This document shows positions 28,437 through 43,164 of a stretch of 64,000 nt of DNA, piece by piece (position 1 is the first letter of the stretch; the number at the start of each line of letters is the position of its first letter). The stretch is from Selenomonas sp. (GTDB taxonomy: Bacteria; Bacillota; Negativicutes; Selenomonadales; Selenomonadaceae): assembly GCA_022773585.1 (NCBI GenBank), contig JALEZZ010000069.1, positions 18,124 through 82,123 of the forward strand, written 5' to 3'. The notes beneath the pieces were generated by a model. That model saw only the letters and a program-made list of their open reading frames with translations. It made no database searches and was not told the origin of the DNA. The translations under genes were made by a program, and so were the position numbers.

Positions 28437-28512
28437 CGGGCGTGGGAGGGAGACCATAAGGAATCCGTTAAGGAATCGTCCGTGGATTCCGTTGGTCTCC
28501 CTCCTACGCCCG
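28437..28512. repeat. Palindromic-core element, copy 2
   Basis: Arms CGGGCGTGGGAGGGAGACC (28437-28455) and GGTCTCCCTCCTACGCCCG (28494-28512), one mismatch. Core 28456-28493 starts ATAAGGAATCCGTTAAGG and ends GTGGATTCCGTT. CGCGACCGCG follows (28511-28520). A degenerate left half (GGGAAAATCATAAGGAATCC) precedes it at about 28369-28388. Confidence 0.85.
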
Positions 28513-28555
28513 CGACCGCGAACCTATCTTAGAAGCGAAAAGGAGGCCCCCTTTC

Positions 28556-29509
28556 ATGCATGACATCCGCACGCCTGGCATCGAGGCGGCCTCCCGCATC
28601 CTGCCGAAGTCCATCCATGCCCTCGGCCCGGCCGTCGAACGGCTCTATTACTGCCACAGCGTCCTCTTCCACTGGCCGCAGATCGTGGGGCAGGCCATCG
28701 CGGCCAATGTCGAGGCCGTGCGCATCGTGAAAAAGACGCTCTGGCTCTATTCGTACGATGCGACGTGGCGCAACCAGATCCAGATGATGCAGCTCGATGT
28801 CCTGCAGAAGGTCAATAATTTTGCGGGCGAGGCGCTCGTCAGCGAGCTCCGCTTCGCGCGGTCGGGACGCGAAAAGATGCAGCTGCGGGACGAGCCGATG
28901 GAGGCGCTCGACTACCGCACGCTGCTGCCGAAAGTGAATCTCACGGACGAAGAAATCGCAGCTGTCCGCGCAGAGGTCGCGGCCGTCGAGGACGACACGC
29001 TGCGCGACCATCTTTTCCGCGTCTCGCTGAAGCAGGCAAAGCTCCAGCATCTTCTCAAGAGCCTCGGCTACCATCCATGCGAAGACTGCGGCAGTCTCAC
29101 AGAGCCCGAGCGCACGCGCTGCGAGCTCTGCGAGCGGAAGCATGAGGAGGCCGTGCGCTCGGCTGTCCGGCGCTATCTCGAAGACATCCCGTGGGCGCGC
29201 TTTGGCGAAGTGCTGGCAGACATCCCCGAGGCGACGCCAGAGATGCTGGCCTCCGTCCGCGCGTCGTACGTGCAGCAGCTCGCCTCGACCGTGCTCCTCG
29301 CCGAGCCAAATACGATGCAGGCGAAGACGCTGACGATGGCGTTCCAGTGCGTGCCGCCCGAGCAGCTCACGGAAGACCTCGTGCGGCGGACGCTCTACCG
29401 GCTGAGGTATGATTTGGCAAAACCGAAGGAGTGGAAACCGGTACGAAGATACGAATATATTTCGTGGGGGAGAAAAAAAGTCGCACCGGCGCAAGAAACA
29501 TCGAGCTGA
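28556..29509 (+). CDS. dciA: DciA/DUF721 family protein
   Basis: 317 residues; AAAAGGAGG precedes the ATG. The first ~120 residues are a DUF721 domain (FHWPQIVGQAIAANVEAVRI, LWLYSYDATWRNQIQMMQLD), the module of DciA, which recruits or loads the replicative helicase DnaB in bacteria lacking DnaC/DnaI. The remaining 200 residues are helical with a zinc-ribbon-like CEDCGSL...CELCERKHEE motif (two CxxC pairs, about residues 180-203). This extended form near gyrB is common in Negativicutes. A replication role is likely from family and position. Confidence 0.82.
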   Translation: MHDIRTPGIEAASRILPKSIHALGPAVERLYYCHSVLFHWPQIVGQAIAANVEAVRIVKKTLWLYSYDATWRNQIQMMQLDVLQKVNNFAGEALVSELRFARSGREKMQLRDEPMEALDYRTLLPKVNLTDEEIAAVRAEVAAVEDDTLRDHLFRVSLKQAKLQHLLKSLGYHPCEDCGSLTEPERTRCELCERKHEEAVRSAVRRYLEDIPWARFGEVLADIPEATPEMLASVRASYVQQLASTVLLAEPNTMQAKTLTMAFQCVPPEQLTEDLVRRTLYRLRYDLAKPKEWKPVRRYEYISWGRKKVAPAQETSS

Positions 29510-29527
29510 TTGTCAAGACGTACAAGC

Positions 29528-29573
29528 GACTCCCCCCGCCCTTCGGGCCCGTCCCCCCTCTAGAAGGGGGCAG
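29528..29573. repeat. Half-module of the palindromic repeat
   Basis: ACTCCCCCCGCC, CCCTTCGGGCC hairpin and CCCCCCTCTAGAAGGGGG hairpin between dciA and remB. Confidence 0.75.
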
Positions 29574-29630
29574 GGAATTCGTGAGGCTCCGTTCCTTTGG
29601 TGAATACGACGAAAAAAGCAGGTGGCATTT

Positions 29631-29912
29631 ATGTTTTTACACTTGGGCAACAACCTCTCCGTGCGGGCGGCGGATGTCGTGTCGATTCACGACATGAAGC
29701 TCTTTTTGCCCGGCGGGCCGTCGCGATCGTTCTTTGAGAGCGCGCAGGCGGCGGGGCGCGTGCGGAGCCTGACGGGCGGCCGCCCGCCGAAGTCCCTCGT
29801 CATCACGCGGGACGCCATCTACCTTTCCGCGATATCTCCCGCGACGCTTCTCAGGCGTGCGCGTTCATCCTATACATTTGTCGAAAACAGCAAGAAATCA
29901 TCGAAATCATAA
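29631..29912 (+). CDS. remB: RemB/YaaB-type DUF370 regulatory protein
   Basis: 93 residues from MFLHLGNNLSVRAADVVSIH; AGGTGG is seven bases upstream. The DUF370 pattern includes SLVITRDAIYLSAISPATLL with the ISPxTL motif. In B. subtilis the neighbouring yaaB (remB) occupies the same place before gyrB; the related RemA is a DNA-binding regulator of matrix and osmoprotection genes. The target here is unknown. Confidence 0.85.
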   Translation: MFLHLGNNLSVRAADVVSIHDMKLFLPGGPSRSFFESAQAAGRVRSLTGGRPPKSLVITRDAIYLSAISPATLLRRARSSYTFVENSKKSSKS

Positions 29913-29940
29913 GATCGAAAGAAGATAGGAGACAAGATTC

Positions 29941-41590: not shown

Positions 41591-41670
41591 GGGTAGGGCC
41601 TCCTTTTCTTTCGTTCTGATTTTATTTCAAGTATACGTTTCGCAAAGGGCTCCGTCAACCGCGATTTTCC

Positions 41671-41699
41671 TTGACACTCTGCCGCGCGTTTGCTAGATT
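41671..41699 (+). promoter_or_regulatory. Promoter of the ZTP riboswitch-purH unit
   Basis: TTGACA (41671-41676), 17 bases, TAGATT (41694-41699). Transcription would begin near 41706. Confidence 0.75.
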
Positions 41700-41710
41700 A
41701 TTAGTAGGAA

Positions 41711-41822
41711 TCTTGCACGACTGACGGAAGTGGAGTTCACCACGGGGAGTGCAAGTGGCAGCGTTGCTGCAGGAGAGCCGACCGTCTGGGCAAGAGCCTT
41801 GGACTTTGTCGGCTCTTTTTTC
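41711..41822 (+). promoter_or_regulatory. ZTP (pfl) riboswitch with terminator
   Basis: P1 stem CTTGCAC/GTGCAAG encloses GTGGAGTTCACCAC and CGGGGAG, followed by a GCAGC-GTT-GCTGC hairpin and the conserved pseudoknot strand ending CTGGGCA. The expression platform is a terminator: AGAGCCGAC (41774-41782) pairs with GTCGGCTCT (41808-41816), then six T. AGAGCCGAC lies next to the ligand-binding pseudoknot strand, so ZTP/ZMP binding should prevent termination and turn on the purine gene. Confidence 0.88.
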
Positions 41823-41849
41823 GTGCGATTTTGCAAAGGAGACAGCGAA

Positions 41850-43025
41850 ATGAAAGAACTCGAACTGAAGTATGGCTGCAACCCGAACCAGAAGCCGGCG
41901 AAGGTGTATATGGAGGAGGGCGAGCTGCCATTCACGGTGCTGAACGGGCGTCCGGGATACATCAATCTGCTCGACGCGATGAACAGCTGGCAGCTCGTGC
42001 GGGAGCTCAAAAAGGCGACGGGGCTGCCGGCGGCGGCTTCGTTCAAGCATGTGAGCCCGGCGGGTGCGGCCGTGGCGGTGCCGCTGTCGAATGTGCTGCA
42101 GAAAGTGTATTTCGTCGAGGGCGTGGAGCTTTCGCCGGTCGCGACGGCGTACATCCGCGCGCGCGGCGCCGACCGCATGAGTTCGTATGGCGATTTCGTG
42201 GCGCTGTCGGATGAGTGCGATGCGCAGACGGCGTCGTTCCTGAAGCGCGAGGTGTCGGACGGCATCATCGCGCCGTCGTACAGTGCGGAGGCGCTCGAGA
42301 TCCTGAAGACGAAGCGCAAGGGCAGCTATCTCGTGATCCAGATGGATCCTGCCTATGAGCCGCCCGCGGTCGAGACGAAGCAGGTCTTCGGCGTGACGTT
42401 CTCGCAGAAGCGCAACGATGTGGCCATCACGGAGGACTGCCTGAAGGACATTGCGACGAAGGCGAAGGATCTGCCGAGCGCGGCGAAGCGCGATCTCCTG
42501 ATCGCGCTCATCACGCTGAAATACACGCAGTCGAACTCGGTCTGCTACACGTATGACGGGCAGGCCATCGGCATCGGCGCAGGCCAGCAGAGCCGCGTCC
42601 ACTGCACGCGCCTCGCGGGCGGCAAGGCCGACCGCTGGTTCCTGCGCCAGAGCCCGCAGGTGCTGAATCTGCCGTTCAAGGAAGAGGTGCGCCGCCCGGA
42701 TCGCGACAACGCGATTGACGTCTACATCGGCGACGAGTGGGAAGATTTGCTCGAAACGGACGACTGGAAGCGCGTCTTCAAGGAGAAGCCGCCGGTCTTT
42801 ACGGCGGAGGAGAAGAAGGCGTGGCTCGCGAAGGCGGCGCATGGCGTCTGCCTCGGCTCGGATGCGTTCTTCCCGTTCGGCGACAACATCGAGCGCGCGC
42901 ATAAATCCGGCGTGCAGTACGTGGCGCAGACGGGCGGCTCGATCCGCGACGACAATGTCATCGAGACGGCTGACAAGTACGGCATGACGATGGCGATGAC
43001 GCATATTCGGCTGTTCCATCACTAA
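41850..43025 (+). CDS. Single-domain AICAR transformylase (phosphoribosylaminoimidazolecarboxamide formyltransferase)
   Basis: 391 residues from MKELELKYGCNPNQKPAKVY; AAAGGAGA lies upstream. Adds a formyl group from 10-formyl-THF to AICAR (ZMP) in purine synthesis. The active-site block AASFKHVSPAGAAVA (Lys-His pair) and AIGIGAGQQSRVHCTRLAGG are present. It lacks the IMP cyclohydrolase domain of full PurH, so cyclization must be done elsewhere. Control by a ZTP riboswitch directly upstream fits: the ligand is the substrate or its triphosphate. Confidence 0.92.
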   Translation: MKELELKYGCNPNQKPAKVYMEEGELPFTVLNGRPGYINLLDAMNSWQLVRELKKATGLPAAASFKHVSPAGAAVAVPLSNVLQKVYFVEGVELSPVATAYIRARGADRMSSYGDFVALSDECDAQTASFLKREVSDGIIAPSYSAEALEILKTKRKGSYLVIQMDPAYEPPAVETKQVFGVTFSQKRNDVAITEDCLKDIATKAKDLPSAAKRDLLIALITLKYTQSNSVCYTYDGQAIGIGAGQQSRVHCTRLAGGKADRWFLRQSPQVLNLPFKEEVRRPDRDNAIDVYIGDEWEDLLETDDWKRVFKEKPPVFTAEEKKAWLAKAAHGVCLGSDAFFPFGDNIERAHKSGVQYVAQTGGSIRDDNVIETADKYGMTMAMTHIRLFHH

Positions 43026-43037
43026 AGAAGAAAGAAC

Positions 43038-43164
43038 GCGGTCGCGAAGAGAGGATTTCGCACGCAGGCGGGGACGGGGATGCACCGGAATCCACGGACG
43101 ATTCCTTAACGGATTCCTTTTGCATCCCCGTCCCCGCCCGAAGGAAAGGTTGCGGTCGCGAAGA
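43038..43164. repeat. Palindromic-core element, copy 3
   Basis: Arms GGCGGGGACGGGGATGCA (43067-43084) and TGCATCCCCGTCCCCGCC (43121-43138) are exact complements. Core 43085-43120, on the minus strand, starts AAAGGAATCCGTTAAGG and ends GTGGATTCCGG. The whole is flanked by a 13-base direct repeat GCGGTCGCGAAGA (43038-43050, 43152-43164). Confidence 0.85.

Follow-up and report, generated by a model that had tools for sequence, protein, structure and literature searches.

Palindromic repeats scattered through bacterial genomes, and the mutations that keep hairpin stems paired, form the background to this study of an interspersed hairpin family in a Selenomonas sp. genome (assembly GCA_022773585.1). 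The family came to notice through three copies in a stretch of 64,000 nucleotides of contig JALEZZ010000069.1 (positions 18,124 to 82,123 of the forward strand), which we call the window and whose own numbering is used below. According to the excerpts of the papers cited here, YPAL (RU-2) elements are approximately 168 bp long, intergenic, and not A+T-rich; they carry internal inverted repeats, occur at sites that are filled or empty between close relatives, and in some cases create in-frame gene fusions (PMC2229807). Rickettsia palindromic elements (RPE) measure about 100 to 150 bp, and some lie in frame inside genes (PMC10969869, PMC2267715). Repetitive extragenic palindromic (REP) elements and bacterial interspersed mosaic elements (BIME) are extragenic palindromes whose subfamilies have alternative complementary stem residues, and some occur inside replication or repair genes; among them, the CGTC REPs reportedly have no transposase of their own (PMC3733652). 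Finally, template switching has been described as a process by which hairpins acquire compensatory changes at several bases (PMC8794818).

Compared by description only, our element resembles YPAL in its internal inverted repeat, its length of roughly 100 to 170 nt, its intergenic position (copy 1 excepted), and its filled and empty sites. However, YPAL has target duplications of 3 to 26 bp, which are not established for our element, and the YPAL excerpts mention neither arm variation nor exchangeable loop domains, both of which are features of the family described here (PMC2229807). As with RPE, a copy lies in frame within a gene, in this case copy 1 in recF; unlike RPE, this is the one copy of the family seen inside a gene, and none of the 58 other rows examined for gene context fell inside a called gene. 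Relative to REP and BIME, the hairpin is longer, has several loop domains, and comes with neither a GTAG tag nor, as far as we found in its own genome, a gene for a REP-associated tyrosine transposase (RAYT); because of these last two points, we do not class it as a REP. Only one subfamily has a CGTC string, at its right end (37 aligned copies, by eye). Nor do we class the element as a miniature inverted-repeat transposable element (MITE), because it has no terminal inverted repeats: with its ends placed provisionally, its inverted repeats are internal and its outer TCTTCGCG boxes are direct. Arms that vary yet pair have precedent, since REP families with alternative complementary stem residues have been published (PMC3733652). 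What makes the family a variant is its length, its several loop domains, its TAA/GT loop, its in-frame recF copy, and the finding of no RAYT.

A hairpin family with variable, paired arms

The initial annotation had reported three sites with a constant core and with arms that pair within each copy, and re-reading of the coordinates bears this out. Copy 1 (26929..27022, + strand; 77.9 bits under our covariance model R1) is a short-loop element with a loop region of 15 nt rather than the usual 17; its left arm (26940..26954, +) and right arm (26991..27005, +) pair at 14 of 15 positions, the remaining one being A.C. Copy 2 (28430..28524, +; 101 bits) is a complete short-loop element upstream of dciA, with arms at 28438..28455 and 28494..28511 (both +) that contain one G.T. 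Copy 3 (43053..43147; 97.4 bits), which is assigned to the - strand because of the orientation of its core, is likewise complete and short-looped and lies between convergent genes according to the gene calls; on the element strand (-), its left arm (43121..43138) and right arm (43067..43084) pair at 18 of 18 positions.

These copies belong to a family of at least 38 members in their own genome, made up of 23 places found with the covariance model and 15 further long-loop copies. The model, built from 37 copies, returned 31 rows, eight of which were reverse-strand echoes; its count is a lower bound, with 150 of 1120 first-look candidates scored. A long-loop pattern gave 17 own-genome matches, of which 16 were judged real and one of these was already among the model places. 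With up to two mismatches allowed, the core pattern matched 18 times and identified 13 true members; the other five (L011, L012, L016, L017, and L018) were chance core matches without arms.

Most members are built on one frame: variable arms that pair with each other, an internal loop of TAA/GT, an inner helix that covaries, and a loop domain that comes in several kinds. A search for this frame, defined as an arm, unpaired TAA, the first inner-helix strand, the loop domain, the second inner-helix strand, unpaired GT, and the partner arm, found 51 elements among the collected loci, a search that presupposes the frame and so cannot prove that every copy has it. There are exceptions: AA and G replace TAA and GT in one subfamily, the L057:2324 group has neither, and L066 and L067 form a continuous stem. 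The loop domain is short (GTTAAGGAATCGTCCGT, with its own 3-pair helix), approximately 40 nt, or long, with CTTTTAGCTG ... CAGCGTTG. Long loop domains, such as those of L068, L131, L150, and L162, have kept stretches (GTAAGGAAACG, GATGTGAACC, and CAGGCCGTGTCAGCGTTG) suggestive of a structured RNA or protein-binding core; a search of L068 against Rfam gave no match. A fourth window member is of this long-loop type, with its own paired arms (1349..1493, -).

In many copies, TCTTCGCG-type boxes stand outside the hairpin on both sides. We considered one of them, TCTTCGCGACCACGAA, as an independent repeat and rejected it, given that six of its seven own-genome matches (0 to 1 mismatch) adjoin such a hairpin and the seventh (L114) adjoins a right half only; of some weaker matches inspected, most read as coding sequence. 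The 13-base direct repeats noted earlier outside copy 3 are present (GCGGTCGCGAAGA at 43038-43050 and 43152-43164; on the - strand, TCTTCGCGACCGC as the 3' and 5' box, respectively). They match the boxes (TCTTCGCGACC..) beside many copies, and therefore provide no evidence for a target duplication at that place.

The arms covary within copies. Pairing holds in 97.4% of stem cells (37 aligned copies, 22 pairs), compared with 80.2% (standard deviation 0.8) when partners were shuffled 500 times, and cells with both sides changed number 172 versus 51.1. None of the 500 shuffles was as high on either of these measures, on the number of doubly changed pairs, or on the covariation score (0.555 versus 0.201), such that four of five measures lie above every shuffle, as is characteristic of a hairpin with a covarying stem. 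The fifth, further pair types, was not above chance (29 versus 29.6). When the 37 copies were read in slid registers, only 31.5 to 62.5% of cells paired. Double changes affect all 12 arm pairs, 2 of the 7 inner-helix pairs, and 1 of the 3 loop-helix pairs; with double changes inside the inner and loop helices, the constant core itself therefore covaries (GGAACCC/GGGTTCC, GGAATCC/GGATTCC, and GAAATCC/GGATTTC).

The arms do differ among the three window sites, as first reported, but to call them unrelated was an overstatement, for arms fall into families and identical pairs recur. Left arms are 73.5% purine and group into families, an identical 14-nt arm pair occurs at two unlinked genome places (C29 and C55; L006/L010, also numbered L052/L046), and 51 short-loop copies from four genomes, orthologues included, hold 38 distinct arm pairs. 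One copy, L034, in which 8 of 14 arm positions are not Watson-Crick paired, combines left and right arms of different types, as expected of a chimera from recombination in the core. In L026, a right-arm variant is missing from the left arm.

Within our searches, the family was found in one Selenomonas-like genus only. Under stricter filters, which make the counts lower bounds, matches at E <= 1e-4 occurred in 5 of 189 genomes of the taxonomic family, all from the genus of the window (G000, 20; G174, 21; G175, 19; G176, 14; G173, 1), and two further genomes of that genus, G171 and G172, had none at this threshold. Among GTDB contigs, 24 stretches contain the exact core, all of them from the metagenome-assembled genomes RUG102 (G174), RUG371 (G175), and RUG12578 (G176), which are titled uncultured Veillonellaceae or Selenomonas; among viral contigs it does not occur. 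A literature search aimed at Selenomonas and its relatives in open-licence papers returned no description of such a repeat.

Filled sites, empty sites, and change in place

Presence of the element varies among close relatives. The window's recF (26229..27464, +), identified by a Pfam SMC_N match and by alignment to the RecF of relatives, contains copy 1 in frame. RecF of G175 and G176 aligns on both sides of window residues 232-275, which are missing there, and the DNA between the same anchors measures 136 nt in the window versus 1 nt in G175 and G176. Copy 1 is thus a net 135-nt (45-codon) in-frame insertion (26919..27054, +) relative to two close relatives. The insert has CTCGAA on both sides, which may be a target duplication or element boxes. 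The recF of G173 (L103) has an unrelated linker at the place of the 45-residue insert, and for that reason this spot in RecF seems tolerant of insertions. A search for recF in G174 gave no match.

Other sites vary in similar ways. At the copy 3 place, the element is absent from the 420 nt after the preceding gene in G171 to G176; by eye, one terminator-like hairpin is common to G174, G175, and G176 there and another to G171 and G172, and in G173 the sequence is different and includes a small gene. Upstream of dciA, where RUG371 and RUG12578 have whole elements, the window has a 5' half consisting of the left arm and one inner-helix strand (28355..28388, +), followed by copy 2 with other arms; RUG12578 also has, farther upstream of dciA, a short stretch that resembles the left arm of copy 2. 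Elsewhere, a 99-nt hairpin present in RUG102 (L043 3605-3710) is absent in RUG371 (L090) while the flanking boxes remain, a difference like the precise gain or loss of the hairpin alone, and another copy is absent in RUG12578. Neither of the two filled/empty pairs other than recF has a clear target duplication.

Both arms also change together at one place. We compared orthologous elements in 13 groups (31 pairwise rows), which were formed mainly by flanks; group 15 was assembled from similarity between the elements instead, right flanks carry most of the weight in groups 8a and 8b, and three groups (truncated, chimeric, and long-loop) were excluded. Over the 31 rows there are 32 double Watson-Crick changes, along with 32 single changes to G.T, 20 to A.C, and 44 of other kinds. 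Counted once per position, excluding L027 as one of two like rows in group 2, 12 stem positions went from one Watson-Crick pair to another, in 4 of the 13 groups (1, 2, 10, and 12). Transitions and transversions number 8 and 4 among these doubles and 27 and 21 among 48 singles (P 0.74); with the two mixes alike, the doubles are therefore not limited to routes through G.T. In group 2, which lies upstream of a gene that we take to be symporter-like, six mirrored positions distinguish RUG12578 from RUG102, and their cores are identical. Group 9 contains only unmatched changes, and unmatched single changes persist.

How the arms may stay matched

The explanation that we place first, and hold tentatively, is that of a non-autonomous mobile palindromic element, akin to YPAL or RPE, whose arms are swapped through recombination in the core and re-matched by template switching. 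Such a small palindromic element would spread through the genome, its copies would exchange arms by recombining through the constant core, the hairpin would form in single-stranded DNA, and template switching during DNA repair would then re-match the arms by copying one from the other. We infer all four components: that differences between relatives reflect movement and not loss, that copies recombine, that templates are switched, and that the hairpin forms in single-stranded DNA. The supporting observations are the shared frame, presence and absence between relatives, mirrored double changes, a copy with one foreign arm, and a half copy. The strongest point for template switching is the mirrored in-place change that includes transversions. 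The likeness to template-switch mutations lies in the making or repairing of reverse-complement stems and in multi-base compensatory changes; these mutations were studied in RNA genes (PMC8794818), and their action on an interspersed bacterial repeat is proposed here by extension.

Several results weigh against this explanation. Orthologous elements in the 31 rows differ at 156 of 2092 stem positions (7.5%), 9 of 520 unpaired positions inside the hairpin (1.7%), and 928 of 3129 positions outside it (29.7%), although the exact core match used to retrieve loci of the named genomes (L022-L045) biases the stem and inside-hairpin differences downwards, and part of the outside sequence is not homologous. 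These better-kept stems speak for selection or for conversion of whole elements. Among 37 unique arm pairs, mismatches in a fixed register comprise 22 G.T versus 11 A.C (P 0.08), an excess that RNA-level selection on one strand would predict, though it is not significant; without the fixed register, the counts are 20 and 12 (P 0.22), and the chimera L034 is excluded from both tallies. Six of the 12 double changes fall in one group, where the RUG102 arms resemble RUG102 copy L025, and because of that resemblance, conversion of the whole element would suffice for that group. We consider the better-kept stems, the G.T excess, and this half of the doubles in one conversion-prone group to be the strongest of these points. 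In addition, insert sizes differ (135, 99, approximately 165, and 138 nt), and we noticed no template-switch event with a flanking signature, no loop inversion, and no clear target duplication. No mobiliser was found in a transposase profile search that covered Y1_Tnp only, in the own genome: with Y1_Tnp (PF01797), this genome (99.99% complete) gave no match at E <= 0.001. Likewise, two gene intervals flanked by copies contain no transposase among open reading frames read by eye; the genes are presumably ABC-permease-like (at C56) and gmhA-like (at C55).

Nearly as likely as our preferred explanation is that selection maintains a working hairpin as an RNA or DNA structure, such as a binding site, an mRNA stabiliser, or a terminator, and that the arms changed by ordinary compensatory mutation. 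Beyond the kept stems and the G.T excess, this account is favored by the absence of the 58 context rows from called genes, by the many copies that have the next gene boundary 10 to 60 nt beyond their end, and by the terminator-like hairpin that relatives hold at the copy 3 place. Orientation can be read either way. In 53 rows with both neighbours called and orthologues repeated, 29 elements run with and 12 against both neighbours, 7 lie between convergent and 5 between divergent genes, and this too sits better with selection than with a mobile palindrome. Yet orientation in the own genome is mixed, with 8 elements oriented like both neighbours, 7 opposed to them, 5 between convergent and 2 between divergent genes, and 1 undetermined, in a sample that mostly excludes long-loop copies and in which two C45 copies were set by hand around a nucleosidase-like gene missed by the gene caller, itself trained on known window genes. 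From these counts, the element is not the leader of one gene class, and a preference for the sense direction is possible. Selection is also harder to reconcile with unmatched single changes of all kinds that persist, with the 4 of 12 double changes that are transversions and so cannot have gone via G.T, and with presence that varies among close relatives. Moreover, no element examined matched an Rfam family at gathering score: in a search of 14 loci at E <= 1, the elements gave only microRNA-type matches far below that score, and the single gathering-score match in the window is a ZTP riboswitch, which is not an element.

The comparison matters because covarying stems are usually taken as proof of a selected RNA. 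With 51 short-loop copies in four closely related genomes, and with filled, empty, half, and mismatched sites, the shares of mutation (template switching, conversion) and selection in compensatory change could be measured in this family. It also offers exchangeable loop domains and an in-frame palindromic insertion in recF, a recombination-repair gene, that is absent in close relatives.

We regard it as unlikely, in third place, that whole-element gene conversion accounts for the arms, that is, that each new arm pair was copied as one tract from another genomic copy, which would make arm-to-arm copying unneeded. Identical arm pairs at unlinked places are consistent with such tracts, as is a GGTCTGC/GCAGACC variant common to the RUG102 copies. 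Furthermore, C45 and C41 each hold two copies 138 nt apart, and the two arm types follow one another identically at both places (L019 3150-3400 and L020 4430-4650); where our genome has this two-copy block at C41, RUG371, RUG102, and RUG12578 hold one copy. However, conversion leaves the origin of new arm pairs unexplained, and no other copy among the 51 compared shares the arms of L057:1501, L039:3955, or L043:4572, in a collection from those genomes that is incomplete.

A more speculative idea, to which we give little credence, is a selfish hairpin without a fixed arm sequence. At every round of spreading or repair, one arm would be rebuilt from the other; such an element would be recognized by nothing but its shape, internal loop, and core, and would have fresh matched arms made wherever it landed, possibly with help from the DUF559 endonuclease-like genes found beside several copies.

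It is very improbable that the family is a REP element moved by a RAYT. REP families are typically extragenic palindromes that have alternative complementary stem residues (PMC3733652), but our hairpin is longer (approximately 70 to 150 nt, compared with 20 to 40), has no GTAG tag beside its stem (by eye, 37 aligned copies), and resides in a genome without a Y1_Tnp match at the threshold given above. Least credible of all is insertion into pre-existing palindromes whose arms the element takes over, a suggestion of the initial annotation that could draw on YPAL targets in or next to dyad symmetry (PMC2229807) and on the hairpin in relatives at the copy 3 place, but that finds no support at the two places examined, given that the empty recF site of two sister genomes has no matching palindrome (by eye), that the terminator-like hairpin of five relatives at the copy 3 place has arms unlike those of the element, and that orthologous copies change both arms in place.

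Neighbouring genes and other window features

Two of the genome's four DUF559 genes are in the window, at 27916-28305 (+) and approximately 1578-1892 (-), each beside an element. Across four carrier genomes, an element lies within approximately 400 bp of 5 of 10 near-complete DUF559 genes, versus 3 of 30 acetyltransferase control loci. The former derive from 19 scanned loci, from which five partial domains and four loci of G171 and G173 were excluded and in which L170 and L171 were judged by eye; the controls were taken from 36 matches, and all three positives represent one orthologous place. Several of the five DUF559 cases are orthologues and the association was tested after seeing the window, and we treat it as a lead only.

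The ZTP riboswitch of the window is at 41707-41798 (+), upstream of a gene that we take to be purH-like (41849-43025). The window also holds a second palindromic repeat family of approximately 190 nt, at 3271-3456, 19221-19406, 27636-27833, and 43200-43396. By eye, the ends of these repeats are variable but complementary; one copy adjoins copy 3 and another adjoins a DUF559 gene.

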